From assembly GCA_018396725.1 (NCBI GenBank), contig JAGTRC010000003.1, forward strand, positions 48,463 to 112,462: DNA of 64,000 nt. Reading direction: 5' to 3'. The notes beneath the pieces are model-generated. The model worked only from the letters and a program-made list of their open reading frames with translations. It had not been told where the DNA came from and did not search any database. This stretch comes from Candidatus Bathyarchaeota archaeon. GTDB lineage: Archaea > Thermoproteota > Bathyarchaeia > 40CM-2-53-6 > DTGE01. Shown piece by piece: positions 43,449 to 55,464 of this stretch (the stretch's first letter is position 1; each line of letters starts with the position of its first letter). A program made the position numbers and the translations under genes.

Positions 43449-43853
43449 TTGAAGGTGGCCATGAGAAGGACAAGGGATTGGCTCGACCAGGCTGAAGGCG
43501 ATTTAAAGGCGGCGAGGGATCTATGCGATACTGGAAATTACGCCTGGAGCTGCTTCGCCTCACAGCAATCCGCGGAGAAGTCCTTGAAGGCGATACTTGA
43601 AAGCCTGGTCATCCCGAGCATAGGTCACAATCTTTTATCGTTGGCCTCTGTCGTCTCCGAGAAAATTGAAGTTCCAGATGGCATAAGGTCTGCGTGCAGG
43701 AGGCTTAATAGGTTTTACATCCCTACCAGGTATCCTAACGCTTTTCCGAGCGGGGCACCTGTGCACATGTATGATAGAGAGGACGCCATTCAAGCCATAA
43801 AGGATGCTGAAGAGGTGTTTAATTTTGCGAAGAAGGCTACAGGATTTGCCTAG
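43449..43853 (+). CDS. HEPN-domain protein, partner of MNT nucleotidyltransferase
   Basis: This 134-residue helical protein opens RTRDWLDQAEGDLKAARDLCDTGNYAWSCFASQQSAEKSLKAILE, the HEPN-domain core, and later has YIPTRYPNAF. HEPN/MNT pairs act as toxin-antitoxin modules, with the nucleotidyltransferase AMPylating or otherwise neutralising HEPN. I do not see an obvious R-x4-6-H RNase motif, as in the minimal HEPN group. TTG, GTG and ATG starts lie within 12 bases (43449, 43455, 43461). Its end overlaps the next gene. Confidence 0.85.
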   Translation: MKVAMRRTRDWLDQAEGDLKAARDLCDTGNYAWSCFASQQSAEKSLKAILESLVIPSIGHNLLSLASVVSEKIEVPDGIRSACRRLNRFYIPTRYPNAFPSGAPVHMYDREDAIQAIKDAEEVFNFAKKATGFA

Positions 43854-44268
43854 GCATCGGTCTCTTAAATCCTATATTGAAAAGCTCTTGTCCTCGGAGA
43901 AGAGAGACAAGATAAAATCCATAGTTCTACATGGATCCATGGCGAGGGGAGACTACGATTATTCAAGCGATGTAGACTTGCTAATAATAGTATCTGAAGA
44001 GTCAAAGGGGATTAGTGAGAGAATTTATGAGTATTCTGAGTACTCCGATGGATGGGTTGAGCCCCTCGTCTATACGGGGGATGAAGCTATGAACATGCTT
44101 AACGATTTTAATCCGTTAATACTTAACGCCCTAAAGGATGGAGTAACTTTATTCGACGATGGATTCTGGGCTGGATTAAAGAAAAAATTCGAAGAAATGG
44201 AGTACGAAGGGAAGTTGAAGAGAAGAGGAGATTCATGGATAATAAAAGTCGTCAACCAGGTGGAATAA
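43846..44268 (+). CDS. MNT-type nucleotidyltransferase, partner of HEPN
   Basis: This protein of about 140 residues has the polymerase-beta-fold signature HGSMARGDYDYSSDVDLLII: GS, then RGD and the metal-binding DVD pair. It is a minimal nucleotidyltransferase, coupled to the HEPN gene. The frame extends back to an ATG at 43804, but the TTG at 43846, overlapping the HEPN stop by 8 bases, fits the family start better. The C-terminal part has EPLVYTGDEAMNMLN. Confidence 0.85.
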   Translation: MPRHRSLKSYIEKLLSSEKRDKIKSIVLHGSMARGDYDYSSDVDLLIIVSEESKGISERIYEYSEYSDGWVEPLVYTGDEAMNMLNDFNPLILNALKDGVTLFDDGFWAGLKKKFEEMEYEGKLKRRGDSWIIKVVNQVE

Positions 44269-44681: not shown

Positions 44682-45026
44682 TTACTTTCCTACCATGATA
44701 GCCTGCTTTTCAGCTTCTTTTTTAGCTATCTGCAGGGAAAGCCTCGTTTCATATTCGATCATCATCTTAACCATCGGGTTCTCCAAGTTGACCTTGTAAA
44801 GGGTTGCCCTCCCGATCTTCCTCGTCGCGGAGACCAAGCCCAGCTCCTCCAGATCCTTGAAGTACTTGTAGAATGTGAACTTGCTCATCCCTAAAGCCTC
44901 GATTATCTCCTTCTTCGTGAAATCGTTCAGCTTATAGTCCAGTAGGTAGTCTAGGATCCTGAGCTTGGGCGAGCTGCCCAGAGCCCTAACCAAGAGCGAA
45001 TCACAGCTTTCCTCAACCATTTCCAT
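44682..45026 (-). CDS. Winged-helix transcriptional regulator
   Basis: This 114-residue protein is a winged helix: SPKLRILDYLLDYKLNDFTKKEIIEALGMSKFTFYKYFKDLEELGLV (helices 1-3, residues about 19-65), then a wing RKIGRATLYKVN, then an amphipathic dimerisation helix to the end. This archaeal type is common and normally acts as a local repressor. The divergent AT-rich gap at 45030-45150 shared with the 45153 gene is a natural operator. Ligand and targets are unknown. Confidence 0.8.
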   Translation of the reverse strand: MEMVEESCDSLLVRALGSSPKLRILDYLLDYKLNDFTKKEIIEALGMSKFTFYKYFKDLEELGLVSATRKIGRATLYKVNLENPMVKMMIEYETRLSLQIAKKEAEKQAIMVGK

Positions 45027-45152
45027 CCATCACACATCTTTTGTACCTATTACATTATGTATTGAGTGTAATGTATAATATTGCAGTAAAAATGCTTATA
45101 TTACTTAAAGTATAAATGCTTAACTGTTTAAAGGTATCATAAGTGTACTCTT

Positions 45153-45428
45153 ATGAGGCGCGAATATGCTGATCCAGAGCTGAGGGCACTAATCCTAGAT
45201 TGGCTTCAGAGGCATGGGAGATGGGGAGCCCAGTATTTTCCCTTGGACACGCTCGTCAACAAGCTTTCCCATGTAGTTAAGAACAACGGCAACAGGATAA
45301 GAAAGATGGTGAGAGATCTCATGCTTGAAGGCTACATCTTAGCCCATAAAGGAGGAGAAACGATATCGCTTAACTCAACAAGGAGTAGCGAAATAATACA
45401 ATATATCAAGAAAATATCTGGGATATAG
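45153..45428 (+). CDS. Small winged-helix-like protein
   Basis: This 91-residue protein has a single HTH-like domain: PELRALILDWLQRHGRWGAQYFPLDTLVNKLSHVVKNNGNRIRKMVRDLMLEGYILAHKGGETISLN in helix-helix-helix-wing order. It is divergent from another winged-helix gene and may be co-regulated with it. The ATG at 45153 follows a TAAAGGTATCATAAG leader with a TTAAAG TATA-like element. I cannot name a family beyond winged helix. Confidence 0.65.
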   Translation: MRREYADPELRALILDWLQRHGRWGAQYFPLDTLVNKLSHVVKNNGNRIRKMVRDLMLEGYILAHKGGETISLNSTRSSEIIQYIKKISGI

Positions 45429-46297
45429 ATTCCGCTTTTTCGAAGTTTATACATTCGTAAAAAACATCTATGATTCTTTCAATCAATTCTAGGCGATGTT
45501 TTGAGAGGCAACCTCGTAGAATAACGGTTTCTGAATTAGAAGAGCCTCTGAACCAAAGATTTAATAGGATAGTTCCCGAGTAACTTACTAGAAGAGTAAT
45601 AAAGTAGTAGAATAGCTTTGAAATGGATTATCGGAAGATTAATAGATGCAGCGTCATCCATAATACTGATTCTCGAGATAACGTCTAAAACCATGGGTAT
45701 CCTAACGAGAGAAATGGGATGCAAGTGAAGAGAAGGTTCCTAGGATGGAATTGAGTCGGAGGAGGATAATTCGTAAGGTTGTGGATGCTCTCGCCGTTGC
45801 ACATGTTTTACGCGATGGCTTCCATTAGTTGTCGAGCCAGTCTATCTCCGCACCGTGCTTACCTACATCGCAATCATTCATACGGCACAAGGCCGGAGCG
45901 TGAGTAGATCGGTGACTTTCATCGACGAGCCCGGATGGAGATACACTGCCCATATTTTAGCAACGATCACCCTCCACTTATTGCTGGACTGAATGGTATT
46001 ATACATGGGTGTCCGAAGATCTTACGGAGGAGACAACCCTCTCCACTTCGACAAAGCCCATTCCGAATGAATTGGTCGTTCACTTTGTAAAATTAAAAAA
46101 TCTAATAAATTTTAAAATTTTTATGAGCATCAAAAGCCTCTCCATCTGATCAAGCGCTGTCCATCATTTCGCAGTTTCCAGCACCGAAACTTAATATAGG
46201 AGATTAAATACGGAGAACTGCGGTAAGAAAGATTGGCTCGAAGCGGGAGACCGAATTCTCATTCACCACATATGCACAACCATCTGAAGGAGTTGCC
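45429..46297. other. Gene-free, degraded stretch
   Basis: No intact gene is seen over about 870 AT-rich bases. Short open pieces on both strands (for example plus-strand WIIGRLIDAASSIILIL near 45622-45675) look protein-like but lack continuity. The following zinc-ribbon scrap suggests that this was once coding sequence related to the gene at 46405. Confidence 0.4.
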
Positions 46298-46368
46298 TTC
46301 TGTGAAGAGTGCGGGAGGAGGATTCCAGCAGACCGGGTTCTGCCCTACCGTGGAGATGAACAAGGAGC
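46298..46368 (+). pseudogene. Zinc-ribbon tail remnant, copy of the end of the 46405 gene
   Basis: The frame reads FCEECGRRIPAD and later PYRGDEQGA, against YCEECGREIPAD...PYCGDKQG at the end of the intact gene (49068-49143). At the DNA level the two are alignable over about 70 bases with two single-base gaps; both cysteines of the second pair are lost or out of frame. It is a direct-repeat scrap 2.8 kb from the intact copy, probably left by decay of a tandem paralogue. Confidence 0.65.
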
Positions 46369-46404
46369 TAGGATGGTTGTGATCAGTCAATTCAACAATA
46401 AAGG

Positions 46405-49149
46405 ATGAATTATTCTATGATGTCAGGTTTCGATCTCAGAGATTTGCCTCACAAATTGGCTATCGCTGCTTTATTATCTATTCTATTCCTAGACGTGTCA
46501 GGCATGGTTCAGGGTGGCCAAGTTGAATGTTCGAATTTGGCCTTCAATCCTGCGGATATGCCTAGTGAACTTCGAGGATACGCTGAAAATCCAATTAGTG
46601 GAGTAACTCTTTTTCTGACCAGTGGGAATCCCGAAGAGCTTCCCGGCAAATCCCCTGCATTCTTTCGCATGCTTACTGCGAGTTGGAAGACGAATCCTCA
46701 ATGCAGTTACTATTCAGGCTATGATCGCGGTTTCCGATTAAAAAGAGTCTACTCCGATGGAAGTTCATACATAGAGTTGGCTAGGCCACATGAGTTTATG
46801 GTTGCAGCATTATTCATGTTTCCCGGTGAAGCTGAGGCTTCTTCAGAGTATGCTCAGAACAGTCCAAATTTGAGCGCTCTGAAGGAACAGGAGATCGTCG
46901 GAGGACAGGCTAGTGGGATGATCTTTACGGACGAGAGGACTGAGAATTACGGCGATGAATCCTCCACATGGCTGGTAACAGGCTCTTATCCTGGCGAGAA
47001 CCTGAATACGAGGATATTATGTTCAATGTTCAGGGTCGAATCTGCAGTTGCATTTTTCTACTCGACATGGTATGAGGGCGACTATCCAACTTCATTCGTC
47101 GATGAAACCGGAGCTAGAATCGAGGTCCTGGACCCGGTGACCCCATGCAGAGACGCGGGTTTGAAGGCGATCAGGAATTGGAGCAGCCGTTTATCGAGGG
47201 AGCTCAAAGAATCCCCGCCTACTCCTCCGGTGGAAGGGGGGCAGCCGCCGATGAAGATCTCGATAGTATGCGATAAGGAAGATAAAAGGTACGAGTCCGG
47301 TGAGATGGTCTTATTGACAGTGAAGGTGGAGAGCCTGATCAAGGGAACATACAGCTACGATGAGAAAACGAACACTTATAGAGGTGGAAAATACGAGGTC
47401 TCTAAAGAGATAAGTTTCGTATTAACATTCACATTTCCAAATGGAGTGGGTGGATCGATCGCCTTCGGCGGTGGAAGTGAACGGCGCATAAAAACAGGCT
47501 CCGACGGGTCATATTCTTTTGCGCCTTTTGCACCTTATCTTACGGGGACTTACACGATCAAGGTAAGTGTCAATCCTAAGGACTACGGGTTCCCAGCACA
47601 TCCAGGAATTACGGATACAGTTACATTAACGGTTTACGAGCCGACGACCGATCCGACTCTAGAACAATTCGCCAGAATCATCGAGCTTTTCAAGAAGAGC
47701 GATTGTATACCGTCGAACAGGGAAAAAGTAGAGAGAGGAGTAGCTGACTATTATGCTAAACGAGGATTAGAATACAGCCCTCCAGCGGACATGCGATACG
47801 GAGGTTGGAATAACTTCCTTTTCTGTAGGGATGTTAAAAGCGGTGATGAAACGGTCACGGCCAGTAATGGATACAACTGCCCCGGAACTGTCGCCAAGAC
47901 CCTGAAGTTTCTGACAAAGTTGAGGTTCGGCATCGGCTACAGCGATGCTGAGAGGAGGCTGCTCAGGGGAATAGACTATGGACCCATCGCCCGGGGCACG
48001 TCATGGACAGCTTCAAAGCTGGGTGAAGAACACCGCGCCGTGGTCTTATACGATTATTGGCAAGGGAGAGATTGGGCATCATACGATGATAACATAGTCT
48101 TGGATCCTTGGCCTAAACAGAGGCCTGAGGTTTTCACCCTACAGGATTTCCGCTACTTCTATTACTCAAAATCAAGAATCCCCATGGATCCTTATGGTGA
48201 CCCAGAATGGATGCATGATGACCCATTCTGGTGTGCATTCCCTACGGTAGGCGGAGCAGTATATTGGAATCTTGAGCTGAGGGAATTAGGAATCAAATAT
48301 ACTATACCACCGGAGACGGGAACTCCAAGCGGCAGATCCCACTTCCCATTTCCACCTCCACCTCCTCCACCTCAAGTTCCAGTACCATCTCCAGCATCCG
48401 TAACGACTCTAACCGGTCAAACGATATTCGAATGCCCAGTCACCATCGATATTTACAACGATGAGGGTGAGCATGTTGGATTCGTGGATGGTAGAATCGT
48501 ATCTGATATAGAGGGGGCCCTACTATACGTTGACCAGGGGTTGGAATCCGACTTCTTCTGGTACGTCGCTCTGCCAGAAGGGAAATACTATGTGAAAATT
48601 GAGGGGATCGGGGATGGCGACTTCCATATATTGACAACAAAGGAAGGATTCGTCCAGTGTTACGATGCTTCAATCAGGAGGGGTGAGGTGGCTTCACTTG
48701 AACTCGACTCTGAAAAACATGGTGAGCCATTAATAATGCCGAACGGCGATGAGGTGATGCCAAAGACAATCATCATAGAGGTTTCGGAGGATGGCCAAGG
48801 GAGCGTTACTCGAGGCAGAGGTCCAGGAGAAATAATGTTCATAGGAGCGGTCATTCTCGTTACAGTCTTCATTTCAATTTTAATTTTAAGACGTAAAACA
48901 GGTATACTGCATGTGCCTGTCTTCCCTGGAGGGAAGGAGGCTAAGCCTGCAACATCCAAAGTAGAGGGACGTGTAGAGGCTCAATACATCTGTCCGAGCT
49001 GCGGGGCCTCCAATGCGAGAACTAACAAATACTGTGTAAAGTGCGGCAAGATCTTGCCATCTCATTCTTACTGTGAGGAATGCGGGAGGGAGATTCCGGC
49101 AGATTCAACGTTCTGCCCCTATTGTGGAGATAAACAAGGAGTCAACTAA
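46405..49149 (+). CDS. Large surface protein: Ig/MG2-like, Cys-His-Asp hydrolase-like domain, TM, cytoplasmic zinc ribbons
   Basis: This 914-residue protein has a signal peptide (about 14-38), an unknown domain (about 40-270), a macroglobulin/Ig-like domain (about 277-395, with YESGEMVLLTVKVESL and TGTYTIKVSVNP), and a domain (about 420-640) with Cys492 in NGYNCPGTVAKTL, His543 in GEEHRAVVLYDYW and Asp567 in NIVLDPW. That order and spacing suit a papain/transglutaminase-like triad. A Pro-rich linker, beta domain, one membrane span (about 811-835) and two cytoplasmic zinc ribbons (863-911) follow. The catalytic call is inference. Confidence 0.75.
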   Translation: MNYSMMSGFDLRDLPHKLAIAALLSILFLDVSGMVQGGQVECSNLAFNPADMPSELRGYAENPISGVTLFLTSGNPEELPGKSPAFFRMLTASWKTNPQCSYYSGYDRGFRLKRVYSDGSSYIELARPHEFMVAALFMFPGEAEASSEYAQNSPNLSALKEQEIVGGQASGMIFTDERTENYGDESSTWLVTGSYPGENLNTRILCSMFRVESAVAFFYSTWYEGDYPTSFVDETGARIEVLDPVTPCRDAGLKAIRNWSSRLSRELKESPPTPPVEGGQPPMKISIVCDKEDKRYESGEMVLLTVKVESLIKGTYSYDEKTNTYRGGKYEVSKEISFVLTFTFPNGVGGSIAFGGGSERRIKTGSDGSYSFAPFAPYLTGTYTIKVSVNPKDYGFPAHPGITDTVTLTVYEPTTDPTLEQFARIIELFKKSDCIPSNREKVERGVADYYAKRGLEYSPPADMRYGGWNNFLFCRDVKSGDETVTASNGYNCPGTVAKTLKFLTKLRFGIGYSDAERRLLRGIDYGPIARGTSWTASKLGEEHRAVVLYDYWQGRDWASYDDNIVLDPWPKQRPEVFTLQDFRYFYYSKSRIPMDPYGDPEWMHDDPFWCAFPTVGGAVYWNLELRELGIKYTIPPETGTPSGRSHFPFPPPPPPPQVPVPSPASVTTLTGQTIFECPVTIDIYNDEGEHVGFVDGRIVSDIEGALLYVDQGLESDFFWYVALPEGKYYVKIEGIGDGDFHILTTKEGFVQCYDASIRRGEVASLELDSEKHGEPLIMPNGDEVMPKTIIIEVSEDGQGSVTRGRGPGEIMFIGAVILVTVFISILILRRKTGILHVPVFPGGKEAKPATSKVEGRVEAQYICPSCGASNARTNKYCVKCGKILPSHSYCEECGREIPADSTFCPYCGDKQGVN

Positions 49150-49192
49150 TAATATGTCAGCTTATATGATACAGGGATTGATGGGATGATTC

Positions 49193-49594
49193 ATGTTCGG
49201 TGAGAAGGTCTTCCTGGATCTCTTCGTTCCAACAGATATGTTTTATACGTTGTTTCTTGAGTTTATAGTGATCGTTATCGAAGCCGTCTTCATATACTTC
49301 CTCTTGGAGAAAGCGGTGGGTAAGGCTTTTCTCTCCTCGCTTGGTGCGAACTTTATAACGGGGGTATTAAGCGCCATATATCTCGTCTTCTCCATAGACT
49401 ACTCTCACCCATTTTATTCGAGATTGATCTTAGCGGTCATCGTACCGTTAGTGGTTAACATCCTCGTGGAGGCGGGCATCCTAAAGCTCTTCTACAAGGA
49501 TAAGACCATGAAGAGGATACTGAAGACTTCTGTGGTGATGAACCTCGCCTCCTACATATTCATCGTATTGAACATAATGCCCCTGTTAACTTAA
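49193..49594 (+). CDS. Four-TM membrane protein
   Basis: This 133-residue protein has four hydrophobic segments (about residues 15-40, 47-65, 78-100 and 112-131) and short loops. It follows the large surface protein by 43 bases on the same strand and has an ATG at 49193 with GGGATGATTC upstream. I do not recognise a family. An accessory role to its neighbour, as membrane partner, is suggested only by position. Confidence 0.65.
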   Translation: MFGEKVFLDLFVPTDMFYTLFLEFIVIVIEAVFIYFLLEKAVGKAFLSSLGANFITGVLSAIYLVFSIDYSHPFYSRLILAVIVPLVVNILVEAGILKLFYKDKTMKRILKTSVVMNLASYIFIVLNIMPLLT

Positions 49595-49612
49595 TAATGA
49601 ATAAATAATGAT

Positions 49613-50236
49613 ATGTGTGGGGGATTAATTTTGGATATTGGATTGGTCGCAGGCCTAATTGGTTTGGTTGCCGCAGGGGTAAGCCTCTACATAGTGCTTT
49701 ACACTTTGGGGTTCTTCCAATATTTAGGTGGGAAAAAGCCTTCACCGATTCCGCCCGTGAGCAAGCGAGAGCTAGAGGATAGGCTCCTATCCCTGAACGA
49801 TCCGTTGAAACCCTACCGGATCATGAGAGGAGACGACACAGATCTCGTGGCTGAATGGAAGATCGCCGACTCGGAATGGTGGGGCATCTTCAACAAGAGC
49901 GGGTTAAAATACGCGTATAAGGCCAGCCTCCTACTCGACGAGGGAAGACATTCTGTGCGGTGCTATGAGCAACTCGGCTATATTACGTGGACTGCGGGGC
50001 TGGACGGCATAAAGCCTCACGTAACTTATCAGAGAAGCTTCTTCGGTGGAAGAATCCTCTATAAGAAGGAGTGGGCTAAAGGATACGGAATAAAACAGCT
50101 CAAGCCCTTGGAGGCGGGTAAAGTCTACGACTATAAGTTTGATATAAATGAGATAAGGGGGCCCCTAATCGTGGCCGTTGAGGAAGGCGGATGGGAATGG
50201 GTCCCCGTTACGGCGAAAAGGCATGTAACGCGATGA
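49613..50236 (+). CDS. Membrane-anchored uncharacterised protein
   Basis: This 207-residue protein has an N-terminal hydrophobic segment (about 6-38, GLVAGLIGLVAAGVSLYIVLYTLGFFQYLGG) followed by a soluble domain rich in beta strands and Trp: LVAEWKIADSEWWGIFNKSGLKYAY, VRCYEQLGYITWTAGLDG and GPLIVAVEEGGWEWVPV. It starts 18 bases after the preceding gene, so 46405-50236 looks like one operon. No family is recognised. Confidence 0.65.
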   Translation: MCGGLILDIGLVAGLIGLVAAGVSLYIVLYTLGFFQYLGGKKPSPIPPVSKRELEDRLLSLNDPLKPYRIMRGDDTDLVAEWKIADSEWWGIFNKSGLKYAYKASLLLDEGRHSVRCYEQLGYITWTAGLDGIKPHVTYQRSFFGGRILYKKEWAKGYGIKQLKPLEAGKVYDYKFDINEIRGPLIVAVEEGGWEWVPVTAKRHVTR

Positions 50237-50507: not shown

Positions 50508-50759
50508 ATGGTCAAGCTCATAACCGTTTCCGCGAAGGTGAGTGAGGAATTGAAGAGGAAGGCTGATGAATTAGGGATAAACATCAGTGCTCTAGTGAGA
50601 AGGGCCCTGGAGAACGAGATCAGAAGGATGGAGCTTCAGAGCGTGCTTGAAAGACTTAAGGAAGAGGTCGAAGAGGCTTCCGGGTTGCCCGAGGGAACCA
50701 TTGTAGGGATAATCCGTGACATGAGGGAAGGGCGCACGATTGCCGATCGAACCCTCTAG
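50508..50759 (+). CDS. VapB-type antitoxin
   Basis: This 83-residue protein opens VKLITVSAKVSEELKRKADELGINISALVRRALENEIRRME, a ribbon-helix-helix antitoxin N-terminus, and then a helical toxin-binding part. A TATA-like TACTTATTTAATTTTTTTAGG lies just upstream (50466-50487). It overlaps the PIN-domain gene by 20 bases and would repress the pair. Confidence 0.85.
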   Translation: MVKLITVSAKVSEELKRKADELGINISALVRRALENEIRRMELQSVLERLKEEVEEASGLPEGTIVGIIRDMREGRTIADRTL

Positions 50760-51165
50760 GGCCGTCCTAGACGCTTCCATATTGATCCAAACTATTGTTA
50801 GGGAGAAGTACACTGACGTAGCCCTAAAACTTGTAAGCATGCTCGAGGAAATATATGCGCCTTCACTAATCCTATATGAGATAGGTAACGCCTTGGTGAT
50901 ACTGAAGCGTAGAAACTTCATTACTAAGGAGGATGCGATGAGGAAATTTAACTACGTTAAATCCATACCTACACTTAACATTAAGGAGATCGAATTCGAC
51001 AGGGCCATAGACATGGCTATCGAGCTAGACATCACCTTATATGATGCTTCATATTTGAACCTAGCCCTTGAAATGGAGGCCCAACTCATCACGGCTGACA
51101 GGAAGTTATATGAGAAAGGAAGGGTAATGGCCGAGGTGATCCACGCGTCTGAGGTAACACTTTAA
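50740..51165 (+). CDS. PIN-domain toxin (VapC)
   Basis: This 141-residue PIN-domain protein has the acidic site: Asp in AVLDASILIQTI near residue 11, Glu in LILYEIGNALVIL near 47, Asp in TLYDASYLNLAL near 101 and Asp in LITADRKLYEKG near 119. It is the third VapC of the window. The TTG start at 50740 lies inside the antitoxin gene; internal starts would remove the first strand. Confidence 0.87.
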   Translation: MPIEPSRAVLDASILIQTIVREKYTDVALKLVSMLEEIYAPSLILYEIGNALVILKRRNFITKEDAMRKFNYVKSIPTLNIKEIEFDRAIDMAIELDITLYDASYLNLALEMEAQLITADRKLYEKGRVMAEVIHASEVTL

Positions 51166-52219: not shown

Positions 52220-52615
52220 ATGGGCGACAGCACGCACCATTCAAGGATCGCTGAAGAGAATTTCTTGGGGGCCGCTGAAGAACTGGAGAATAAGAGGTTC
52301 ACGAACGTGGCCCTACTCTGCCTGAGATCCCTAGAGCAGATGATAGAGGCATGCGCCTCCAAGGAGAAGCTGCACTTCCATGAACAGCCCAGGACGGCCC
52401 ATAAAAACCGCCGCAACTGGCTAAATATGCATCACCCAGACTTAACAATCCATTGGGATCGACTCTGGGGGATTTACGGCGCCCTCGGATATGGAGGGGT
52501 AAACGGGGAGAGGGCCACGCAAGCCCTCGAGATCCTCAAAGAATGCTTAACAGAATTGGGCAGGAGGGAAGACGTTGCCATCAGAGGCCTACAAAGAGAT
52601 AGAGAAGATAGTTGA
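52220..52615 (+). CDS. HEPN-domain protein (second pair)
   Basis: This 131-residue helical protein opens HHSRIAEENFLGAAEELENKRFTNVALLCLRSLEQMIEACASKE, like HEPN proteins, and continues HFHEQPRTAHKNRRNWLNMHH; RRNWLNMHH may be the R-x4-6-H RNase motif. It therefore may be an active ribonuclease toxin, unlike the first HEPN. Its end overlaps the nucleotidyltransferase by 41 bases. Confidence 0.72.
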   Translation: MGDSTHHSRIAEENFLGAAEELENKRFTNVALLCLRSLEQMIEACASKEKLHFHEQPRTAHKNRRNWLNMHHPDLTIHWDRLWGIYGALGYGGVNGERATQALEILKECLTELGRREDVAIRGLQRDREDS

Positions 52616-53153
52616 CCGCCTCAAGGGCGTGGAGGGCGTAATAGGGATCATCCTATTTGGTAGTTACTCAAGAGGGGATTTCGACGAGGGAAGCGACGTA
52701 GACCTCCTAATAGTCTTCAAAGATAAGAAGACCCTGGCCGAGAATCAGGAATTAATCTATGAAGCGACATCCCGAAGCGACCTCTTCATCCAAGCCGTGA
52801 CCCTGACCTTAGACGAGCTCAGAAACTCGCCGTTGCTGGAAACGCTCAGAAGGGAGGGGAAAACATACCATTCAGAAGCCGAGCTAAGCAAACTGTTGGC
52901 GGCAACCCATAAGCCCTACGCCCTATTAACCTACACGACGAGGAAATTGACGACGAAGCAGAGGGTCATATTCTCACAGAAACTAGAAGGGCGTCGTGAC
53001 GGGAAATATCTGTATCCAGGTCTCCTACAACGTGTGGGGGGACAGAAAATCGGGAGAGGCGTGGTGATGATTCCAATAGAAAAACAAAAAGAAGTAGTAG
53101 AATACCTAGAAGCGATGAAAGTCGACTACATGATAAGATACGTTTGGGCTTAG
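52575..53153 (+). CDS. MNT-type nucleotidyltransferase with C-terminal extension
   Basis: This 192-residue protein has the nucleotidyltransferase signature IILFGSYSRGDFDEGSDVDLLIVF (GS, RGD, DVD). The TTG start is well supported by AGGAGGG seven bases upstream. After about residue 110 comes an extra domain of about 80 residues, containing KLTTKQRVIFSQKLEGRRDGKYLYPGLLQRVGG and ending YMIRYVWA, absent from the first MNT. It may be a nucleic-acid-binding or partner-binding domain. Confidence 0.82.
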   Translation: MPSEAYKEIEKIVDRLKGVEGVIGIILFGSYSRGDFDEGSDVDLLIVFKDKKTLAENQELIYEATSRSDLFIQAVTLTLDELRNSPLLETLRREGKTYHSEAELSKLLAATHKPYALLTYTTRKLTTKQRVIFSQKLEGRRDGKYLYPGLLQRVGGQKIGRGVVMIPIEKQKEVVEYLEAMKVDYMIRYVWA

Positions 53154-53301: not shown

Positions 53302-53388
53302 ATGATTATCAGGCCTGTTGGGGAGCCAGCAATGAGAGTTCCTAAAGGCATTGCATCTATGGAAAGGATGGAGGTCGTTGAGGAATGA
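53302..53388 (+). CDS. Possible 28-residue leader peptide coupled to the methyltransferase
   Basis: From ATG at 53302 the frame encodes MIIRPVGEPAMRVPKG and ends VVEE with its TGA overlapping the methyltransferase ATG (ATGA). The upstream frame stays open and protein-like back to a TGA at about 53251. It may be a small translated leader or the end of a decayed gene. Not recognised. Confidence 0.25.
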   Translation: MIIRPVGEPAMRVPKGIASMERMEVVEE

Positions 53389-54302
53389 AGCAGAGGAGAA
53401 GTGGAACTATGACTAGTAGTTTCGGTGTAAAGGGTAGGGAAGCTCATGATTCCTCTCCTTTCTATTCTAGGAAGCTCTACGGTGAATGGGAACTGCCTAA
53501 ACCCCGCCCTGAAGATTTGGTTGAGAGGGCTGTTCCAAATGAACTTTTAGACCAGGTGTTGTTGGGCGATGCGAGGGAAGTTTTGGAGAAATTTCCATCT
53601 AGCTGTATGCATCTGATGGTAACCTCACCACCGTACAATGTTGGGAAAGAATATGATAAAGATTTAACGCTCTCCGAATATCTCGACTTTTTAGGTCAAG
53701 TAATGGAAGAAGTTCACAGGGTGCTAGTTTGGGGTGGGAGGGTCTGTTTTAACGTTGCCAACCTCGGCAGGAAGCCTTACCTTCCCTTACACAAATACAT
53801 AATCGAAGTTTTAGAGGATGTGGGTTTCCTGATGAGGGGAGAAATCATTTGGTATAAAGGCGGTGCTGTGGCTGGTTCGTCTACCGCATGGGGGACTTGG
53901 AAATCCGCAGTTAATCCTATACTCAGAGATACACATGAATACATACTGGTTTTCTCTAAGGGAGCATTCGAAAGGAAAAAGAACGGCGGGGAGGACACCA
54001 TCGCAAAGGACGAGTTTATAGAGTATACAAAAAGCGTTTGGACTTTTCCTCCAGAATCAGCGACAAGCGTTGGACACCCAGCCCCTTTCCCCGTAGAACT
54101 GCCGTATCGCTGTATCCAATTGTTTACGTTCAAAGGCGATGTAGTTTTAGACCCCTTTATGGGAAGTGGAACAACATGTTTGGTTGCTGCCATGACGGGA
54201 AGACACTACGTTGGAATAGATATAAATGAAGATTATGTAAAGCTAGCGAAGAAAAGGATAAATGATTATGTCGCACAAAAGCTTTTAACGGAGTTCCAGT
54301 AG
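53385..54302 (+). CDS. DNA methyltransferase (N4-cytosine/N6-adenine, beta order)
   Basis: This 305-residue methylase has catalytic motif IV TSPPYNVGKEYD near residue 82 and, much later, the AdoMet motif I DPFMGSGTTCLVAAMTGRHYVGIDI near 261. Motif IV before motif I is the beta arrangement. SPPY fits N4-cytosine or N6-adenine methylation. A central RDTHEYILVFSKG and WTFPPESATSVGHPAPFP are family-typical. It converges on a broken endonuclease gene, overlapping by 18 bases. Low G+C suggests transfer. An ATG at 53409 is an alternative start. Confidence 0.9.
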   Translation: MKQRRSGTMTSSFGVKGREAHDSSPFYSRKLYGEWELPKPRPEDLVERAVPNELLDQVLLGDAREVLEKFPSSCMHLMVTSPPYNVGKEYDKDLTLSEYLDFLGQVMEEVHRVLVWGGRVCFNVANLGRKPYLPLHKYIIEVLEDVGFLMRGEIIWYKGGAVAGSSTAWGTWKSAVNPILRDTHEYILVFSKGAFERKKNGGEDTIAKDEFIEYTKSVWTFPPESATSVGHPAPFPVELPYRCIQLFTFKGDVVLDPFMGSGTTCLVAAMTGRHYVGIDINEDYVKLAKKRINDYVAQKLLTEFQ

Positions 54303-54934
54303 CCTCCTCCTTGTGATATTCACCATCTCTTCCATTTCAGCGTAATTTGTCACATCTACAATTTTATCTACAATGTCGCCTTCTGCCAAATCGCGCATAC
54401 ACTTAGCATTTCCTTCGGCAGGTTTGTGACTTTGAAAAAGAGTGTGTTTGGATAAGCCCTTGGTAGGCGTTACATATTGCTTTCTTGACGGTATCGGTTC
54501 GCAACAAACCCGGATGTGGCAACTTTATGCGCTTTCCATCGCAAGTAATATATTCCGCTGCTTCTTTTGCCTCAATAACTGCGATCAACTTTCTCTCCAC
54601 AACTCTCTTATTAAAACTTTCAAGGAAGTCGTCGCTAAAAACAGCGAAATCAGCCTCGCCTCCACTAGCTATACATGCTTTAGGAAGACTAACTTCTCGC
54701 TCTAACGGTATGTCTGGAAAAAGCTTCTCCATTATATACTTGAAAACATTCCTCAAAAGTTTCACCGAACTTTTCCGCCCTGCTTTGGTAGTCTTTGTAT
54801 AGATTAAATTCTTTCGAAGCTTCTTCAAAAGCAAGGTTTAAAAATTCACATAAGTTATTCTTATTAAGTTTCAGATCATCGGCAACTTTTCTAACTAGGC
54901 TCCTCACCGAATTCATGTATGCTGGATATCTCAT
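54285..54934 (-). pseudogene. Type II restriction endonuclease, broken by two frameshifts
   Basis: Three minus-strand frames join into one protein of about 216 residues. Frame one (from 54934) runs MRYPAYMNSVRSLVRKVADDLK to about 54760; frame two gives KLLRNVFKYIMEKLFP, GGEADFAVFSDDF and LIAVIEAKEAAEY, then TDTVKKAICNAYQGLIQTH to about 54445; frame three gives HKPAEGNAKCMRDLAEGD to the stop at 54285. EAD followed by IEAK is a PD-(D/E)xK nuclease site. The second break is at a TTTTT run. The convergent methylase is its partner. Confidence 0.8.
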
Positions 54935-55050: not shown

Positions 55051-55464
55051 ATGTATTGTCCCAGTTGTGGAAAGGAGATTAGGGGTGAAGCCGACTTCTG
55101 CCCTCACTGCGGTTCTAGAATAGGCTTGGGAGGATTCCTAATGGTTACGACGCCCACGATCCCCGGCTATAAGATAATTAAGGTTTTAGGGGTGGTCACA
55201 GGCTTAACTCCTCGCACAAGGGGCGTCTTAGGGAAGTTCATCGCCGGCTTCCAGACGATGTTGGGCGGCGAAGTGACCGCCTTCACCACGGAGCTCGAGA
55301 AAGCCAGGCAGGAGGCTATGGACCGCGTGCGCCAGAAGGCCTTGGAGATGGGGGCAAACGCCGTAGTCGGCTTAGATATTGAAACCTCGGATCTAGGCCT
55401 GCAAGCTGGAGTTATAGTTATATCGGCGACCGGGACGGCCGTCATCGTCGAGCCTGAGCAATGA
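55051..55464 (+). CDS. Zinc ribbon plus YbjQ (UPF0145) domain protein
   Basis: This 137-residue protein begins with a zinc ribbon YCPSCGKEIRGEADFCPHCGSR, then a YbjQ-type domain: PGYKIIKVLGVVTGLTPRTRG, ARQEAMDRVRQKALEMGANAVVGLDIETSDL and VIVISATGTAVIVE. YbjQ proteins form beta-barrel pentamers and are annotated heavy-metal-binding without proof. The ribbon resembles that of the 46405 surface protein. TATATTTTC upstream (55014-55022) is the probable promoter. Confidence 0.88.
   Translation: MYCPSCGKEIRGEADFCPHCGSRIGLGGFLMVTTPTIPGYKIIKVLGVVTGLTPRTRGVLGKFIAGFQTMLGGEVTAFTTELEKARQEAMDRVRQKALEMGANAVVGLDIETSDLGLQAGVIVISATGTAVIVEPEQ

Follow-up and report, generated by a model that had tools for sequence, protein, structure and literature searches.

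The region analysed here belongs to a metagenome-assembled genome (MAG) of the class Bathyarchaeia (Candidatus Bathyarchaeota archaeon, GenBank assembly GCA_018396725.1, contig JAGTRC010000003.1, positions 48,463 to 112,462 of the forward strand); the whole stretch of 64,000 nucleotides is called the window. It harbours three consecutive genes, designated A, B and C, which probably constitute a horizontally moving surface module, in which an anchored ecto-hydrolase would carry exchangeable heads on a constant base made of its own tail, B and C. According to the open reading frame (ORF) calls, A and B are separated by 43 bases and B and C by 18 bases, as claimed in the original prediction, an earlier reading of the sequence. 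Also in line with it, hydropathy and Pfam analysis agree on a signal peptide, a single membrane span and two zinc ribbons in A, and hydropathy supports a four-span protein B and a membrane-anchored protein C. Four features had been overlooked: a variable N-terminal domain and a membrane-proximal beta-rich domain of A, a decayed relative of A upstream of it, and the predicted cytoplasmic location of the soluble domain of C. The order in A is signal peptide, variable N-terminal domain, MG2-like Ig domain, Cys-His-Asp domain, Pro-rich linker, beta-rich domain, membrane span and two zinc ribbons. The features, in window positions, are:

46405 to 49149, plus strand: gene A, 914 amino acids (aa), ORF call
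46453 to 46518, plus strand: hydrophobic stretch of the signal peptide, A residues 17-38, from hydropathy
46522 to 47199, plus strand: N-terminal domain of A, residues 40-265, from the alignment of homologues
47245 to 47640, plus strand: MG2-like Ig domain, A residues 281-412, from invariant alignment columns and a PF01835 match just below the cut-off in the homologue of genome G001
47653 to 48321, plus strand: Cys-His-Asp domain, A residues 417-639, from the alignment; no Pfam, NCBIfam, PHROG or PDB match
47878 to 47880, plus strand: codon of Cys492, the sole invariant Cys of this domain
48031 to 48033, plus strand: codon of His543, its sole invariant His
48103 to 48105, plus strand: codon of Asp567, within an invariant DPWP motif
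48322 to 48426, plus strand: Pro-rich linker of A, from the sequence
48427 to 48789, plus strand: membrane-proximal domain, A residues 675-795, from the alignment, with a putative beta-rich fold; also present in a lipase-headed relative
48835 to 48909, plus strand: single membrane span of A, residues ~811-835, from hydropathy, with basic residues C-terminal of it
48991 to 49149, plus strand: two cytoplasmic zinc ribbons of A (PF13240, DZR)
49193 to 49594, plus strand: gene B, 133 aa, approximately four membrane spans by hydropathy
49613 to 50236, plus strand: gene C, 207 aa, one N-terminal span and a domain of ~150 aa

The zinc ribbons are the sole Pfam matches of A above the curated cut-offs (PF13240, E=4.8e-11; DZR, 9.9e-10) and correspond to a double zinc ribbon of the PF12773/PF13240 kind; in PHROGs, A was matched through them only. 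For the Ig/MG2-like domain, the assignment rests on a homologue: the protein of G001 matches PF01835 with E=1.7e-7, just below the cut-off (32.0 versus 32.8 bits), while the A protein of the window itself gave no PF01835 match in the Pfam scan. The archaeal alpha2-macroglobulin/TEP homologues (PMC8416519), likewise anchored or secreted, also contain a macroglobulin-like Ig domain, but A has a single MG2-like domain, its sequence lacks the thioester CxEQ motif and the Pfam scan detected no TED domain. The N-terminal domain is common to the window and the lipase-type A of genome G023, and is absent or replaced in the A proteins of G001, G012-C17 and G012-C130. The domains of A are under purifying selection, with ratios of nonsynonymous to synonymous substitution rates (dN/dS) of 0.2-0.33.

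The putative catalytic part of the head is the Cys-His-Asp domain, for which residues in papain/transglutaminase order had been proposed. Cys492, His543 and Asp567 were found at the proposed positions, 51 and 24 residues apart and accompanied by the conserved motifs NGYNC-G, HHAVVLY and DPWP. Their conservation in homologues was borne out by six aligned domains: all three residues are invariant in each of them, although the other five are only 31-65% identical to the domain of the window. No Pfam family matched the domain up to E=10, Transglut_core (PF01841) included, and no sequence match was obtained in the PDB. Comparison by hhalign with the Transglut_core and Peptidase_C39_2 sets of related genomes gave results no better than the reversed control. 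Relatives of the domain were not found in viral contigs, nor by tblastn in phages and plasmids, and the search of a phylum sample for wider relatives of B or of this domain yielded only weak marginal matches, several of them crossing stop codons. With the papain-like/transglutaminase superfamily (CL0125; PMC10318531) the domain thus has in common the Cys-His-Asp order, a plausible spacing and the location of His and Asp in hydrophobic strand-like segments, but it differs in having no sequence or profile similarity to Transglut_core, Peptidase_C39_2 (sets of related genomes), Pfam families or PDB entries. It is presented as a candidate for a new family of Cys hydrolases without known match, most likely a peptidase or amidase of the papain superfamily. 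Because neither a fold nor a profile link was obtained, the proposal that Cys492, His543 and Asp567 act in catalysis, which we regard as likely, rests on residue order and invariance. A structural or metal-binding role of these residues, with the domain as a non-enzymatic binding head, would suit the missing fold evidence and a homologue without the Cys segment, but we consider it unlikely in view of the sole invariant Cys and His, their order and spacing, and the motifs around them. In locus L053 (positions 949-1401), the segment with Cys492 is lost in frame and the rest of A is intact; this could be an inactive head or an error of the assembly.

At the opposite end of A, the last 26 residues (YCEECG...CGDKQGV) form a constant tail, which is 58-81% identical between the window and every other A protein, lipase types included; identity in the adjoining span and linker segment is 22-49%. 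A pattern search in 151 genomes detected the ending CGD[K/Q]QG in genuine frames only in the A proteins of genomes with B/C, and the remaining matches were not zinc-ribbon frames. At the level of sequence, this shows the CGDKQG tail to be specific to the module. Other surface proteins of the same genome resemble A in having a signal peptide, an ectodomain, one span and a C-terminal zinc ribbon, but their tails read CGAEQ, CGAPQ or CGTRR, and the CGDKQG tail together with B/C is particular to A-B-C.

The partner proteins have no match in Pfam, NCBIfam or PHROGs, and PADLOC, which covers known anti-phage defence, reported nothing for A, B or C. Protein B contains conserved Glu/Asn inside its membrane spans. 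Protein C is the most conserved of the module (dN/dS 0.09); relatives were not found in viral contigs, and its AlphaFold2 model reached a mean predicted local distance difference test score (pLDDT) of 51 with 7 alignment rows. Since the charge pattern reveals a basic stretch after the N-terminal span, the domain of C is predicted to be cytoplasmic, like the tail of A, and the bacterial fusions agree with this. Relatives of the C domain, which are found in archaea and Syntrophales, include soluble proteins of ~145 aa and, in Syntrophales, proteins also carrying zinc ribbons. The presence of the C domain and zinc ribbons on a single polypeptide in Syntrophales places them on the same side of the membrane and suggests a partnership. 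This link supports, without proving it, the view that C meets the tail of A. Further, two Syntrophales copies are ~60% identical to C, which points to transfer across domains of life. In Smithella/Syntrophaceae, fusions of the C domain to zinc ribbons, TPR or Ig-like regions (L057:8734-9984, L058:9989-10744, L058:17260-18363, L131:970-2097) are located in an operon that encodes many zinc-ribbon membrane proteins. A stand-alone family of ~145 aa related to the C domain exists in Bathyarchaeia and Syntrophales (L076:7843-8277, L077:7930-8430, L078:7782-8222, L125:661-1104), and the members scanned had no Pfam/NCBIfam match.

The genes recur together, which, with the conserved Cys, His and Asp, bears out both conservation checks called for in the original prediction: A-B-C or parts of it are present in G000, G001, G003, G005, G012, G017 and G023, a few genomes all belonging to one order of the Bathyarchaeia, archaea of sediments that are uncultured, and a described system with this gene set was not found. 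A C gene in G056, from another family of the class, is probably a contamination; the genes next to it also accompany C in two other contigs. Genome G012 contains several types of A, including a lipase-type A without adjacent B or C on the stretch read. In the A gene of G017 (L033:85-3034), a direct duplication of ~65 codons inside the gene has left two frames that overlap, due to an assembly fault or as a pseudogene. The comparison with G005, which belongs to a different family of the same order, demonstrates horizontal transfer of A-B-C as a unit: DNA identity to the window is 72-99% from the start codon of A to the stop codon of C and at most 51% in both flanks, which are unrelated.

Within the module, A on the one hand and B and C on the other have different histories. 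The A protein of the window is 68% identical to that of G003 and 32% to that of G001, while its B and C proteins are 77% and 86% identical to those of G001 and 43% and 68% to those of G003. Accordingly, the A tree (window with G003) and the B+C tree (window with G001) are in conflict, each with a support of 100/100, and the opposite clade was rejected in the approximately unbiased (AU) test with p=2.2e-7 for A and p=3.4e-89 for B+C. Along the DNA, identity to G003 is 72-83% before position ~49083 and ~40-60% thereafter, and identity to G001 changes at the same joint from ~30-50% to 73-95%. The reading frame is intact across the joint, and a remnant of a G001-type A, comprising parts of head and tail (45727-46372), is located directly upstream of A. 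The corresponding features are:

49083 to 49112, plus strand: recombination joint within the last zinc-ribbon codons, from sliding DNA identity and tree conflict
45727 to 46101, plus strand: decayed N-terminal part of a G001-type A with frameshifts and stops (tblastn 3e-9; blastn 377 bp at 66%, 8e-18)
46277 to 46372, plus strand: decayed zinc-ribbon tail of the displaced head, in which 71 bp at 80% repeat the tail of A (49071-49141)

None of 200 shuffles reached the match of the decayed head. From the tree conflict, the identity switch and the upstream remnant of G001 type, it appears that a foreign G003-type head displaced the resident one and was joined in frame to the tail end, B and C already in place. 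A chimeric assembly, from two strains present together, could also give such a hybrid locus. In its favour, the genomes are MAGs, the contigs of G005 break inside A and B, and one of them (C22) is 100% identical to the window. However, a diverged locus of G005 (contigs C5 and C4) likewise joins a window-type head to a G001-type B end and C, the frame is intact through the joint, and the remnant is degraded rather than a clean fragment, which makes a chimera highly improbable.

The heads appear not to be restricted to one chemistry. In G023, window-like N-terminal pieces and the C-terminal part of A enclose an alpha/beta-hydrolase (lipase) domain (Palm_thioest, 9e-11), and B and C follow. By its sequence, this A combines the shared tail and B-C base with a lipase head, which argues that the base serves varied hydrolases. 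This observation also bears on the idea that A is a receptor or crosslinker, which would capture or cleave an external target and pass a signal via its cytoplasmic zinc ribbons to C. The predicted inside location of the soluble domain of C, the zinc ribbons fused to its bacterial relatives and the MG2-like Ig domain adjoining the Cys domain would be compatible with it, but the head becomes a lipase while the base is unchanged, and no kinase, DNA-binding or other output domain was recognised in the module. Moreover, zinc-ribbon tails next to the membrane are a frequent feature of the surface proteins in this genome, and because of this a generic tail of this kind is no sign of signalling. The zinc ribbons were thus dropped as specific evidence for inward signalling, a claim of the original prediction that is left unsupported; the stronger evidence points to the tail as the constant joint of head exchange. 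For a crosslinker, nothing speaks beyond the residue order, and the lipase-headed relative points to varied hydrolases. We therefore regard a receptor or crosslinker as very doubtful.

The nearest described case is VARTIG of the Thermococcales, a surface Ig protein with inter-species recombination at sites that are not precisely placeable; its authors report no close counterpart beyond Thermococcales and compare it with polymorphic toxin systems (PMC8416519). Similar to A-B-C, VARTIG modules have a large secreted Ig protein at the 5' end of the operon, membrane-protein partners and diversity arising by recombination between species (PMC8416519). They differ in that their variable part is the C-terminal Ig region and that they are not known to have a catalytic head (PMC8416519), whereas A combines a variable N-terminal ectodomain with a constant cytoplasmic tail at its C-terminus, the heads are putative enzymes and the breakpoint lies within ~30 bases. 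A hypervariable C-terminal Ig region of the arCOG07710 type is not present in A, whose C-terminus is constant and whose head is variable; membership in the arCOG itself was not searched.

Parts of surface proteins are also exchanged in bacteria, in polymorphic toxin systems (PMC3482391). Those of the CDI/Rhs type replace the variable part and keep leftovers of the displaced one. The likeness to the module is that a variable part of a surface protein is swapped at a conserved joint and displaced leftovers lie beside the new part. The module is a mirror image, with the head at the 5' side, the constant part at the 3' side and the leftovers upstream, and it differs in that neither a cognate immunity gene nor a delivery apparatus was recognised with it and B and C stay the same whichever head is present. 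Inter-microbial conflict, in which the heads would be weapons against competitors or a defence against viruses or predators, with recombination as the source of their diversity, much like polymorphic toxin systems, would explain the exchange of heads between species, the displaced old head, the several head types in G012, the patchy distribution, and toxin-antitoxin genes and a DNA methylase as neighbours. However, there is no immunity gene with the head, the enzyme remains membrane-anchored, dN/dS of 0.2-0.33 gives no sign of diversifying selection, and papain-like and lipase heads would suit nutrition as well. We thus judge conflict to be an improbable explanation.

A nutritional role could be fulfilled by A alone, as a simple membrane-anchored enzyme that digests detrital protein, with B and C as functionally untied neighbours. 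This would fit the general occurrence of zinc-ribbon tails and the discussion of sediment Bathyarchaeota as organisms that attack detrital protein with extracellular peptidases (PMC6752024, PMC9123169). But B and C are found behind A in loci that are independent of each other, they move together with it, and the specific tail is confined to genomes with B/C, so that we find this version quite improbable.

We therefore return to the module with exchangeable heads. In this model, A would face outward, anchored in the membrane, with a head composed of the MG2-like Ig domain and the new Cys-His-Asp hydrolase domain, or of an alpha/beta-hydrolase in another copy, and its single span would lead to the cytoplasmic zinc-ribbon tail. 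The tail of A, the four-span protein B and the inward-facing domain of C may bind one another and form the constant base for display, folding or anchoring. Heads would be traded between species by recombination with the 3' joint in the zinc-ribbon tail codons, a position which would place a new head in frame on the resident tail, B and C. The window would have captured one such exchange: a head of G003 type is followed by a tail end, B and C of G001 type, and upstream of it lie the decayed remains of the former head and its tail. The role of the module may be the display of extracellular degrading enzymes, with a substrate range altered by head exchange; the head may be a tool for digesting detrital polymers or for conflict.

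Several observations weigh against this model. The seventh homologue, G012-C338 (identical to L053), is without the Cys segment due to an in-frame deletion. The Cys domain has no profile link to any known Cys hydrolase in Pfam, PDB or by hhalign, and AlphaFold2, supplied with only 2 alignment rows, modelled it with a pLDDT of 34, so that no fold was obtained. When displaced heads were sought upstream of other module loci, the window was the only positive. Finally, reading frames are broken in the lipase-headed A of G023 as well as in the A of G017, and all genomes are fragmented MAGs.

Further genes surround the module in the window. A HEPN/nucleotidyltransferase pair (43449-44268) and a second nucleotidyltransferase with a small partner (52220-53153) flank it, and a ribbon-helix-helix/PIN pair resembling VapBC is located directly 3' of C (50508-51165); in G003, a PIN-like gene lies just upstream of A (L032:8996-9469). 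An N6/N4 DNA methylase gene (53385-54302) is followed by a convergent small ORF (54403-54834), conceivably its restriction partner. Near the module (44682-45428), two small genes, one of them helix-turn-helix-like, are arranged divergently, and this pair is found again near C in L054:2063-2746 and L055:2380-3059, at differing distances. A small protein (55051-55464) has an N-terminal CPxCG-type zinc ribbon like those of A and is unrelated to the module.

The described locus is of interest for several reasons. Exchange of surface-protein parts between species is known for bacterial toxins and for the archaeal VARTIG of Thermococcales (PMC8416519), and in the window the position of one exchange is resolved to ~30 bases, and the donor type, the resident type, the joint and the leftover can all be recognised. 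The locus also provides a candidate for a new family of Cys hydrolases and suggests that labour is divided between an exchangeable ecto-enzyme and a constant tail and base, which is open to experiment. The C domain, which is common to Bathyarchaeia and syntrophic bacteria, is repeatedly tied to zinc ribbons. As a tentative idea, somewhat short of what we would call probable, the zinc-ribbon tail may be at the same time a docking plug for a dedicated B/C base and, in the DNA, the joint for trading chemically unrelated heads, such as a new Cys-His-Asp hydrolase and lipases, between species. It would thereby mirror the tip exchange of polymorphic toxins and re-tool the outer surface. If the base indeed displays or secretes any head bearing its tail, A-B-C would represent an archaeal surface-display system.

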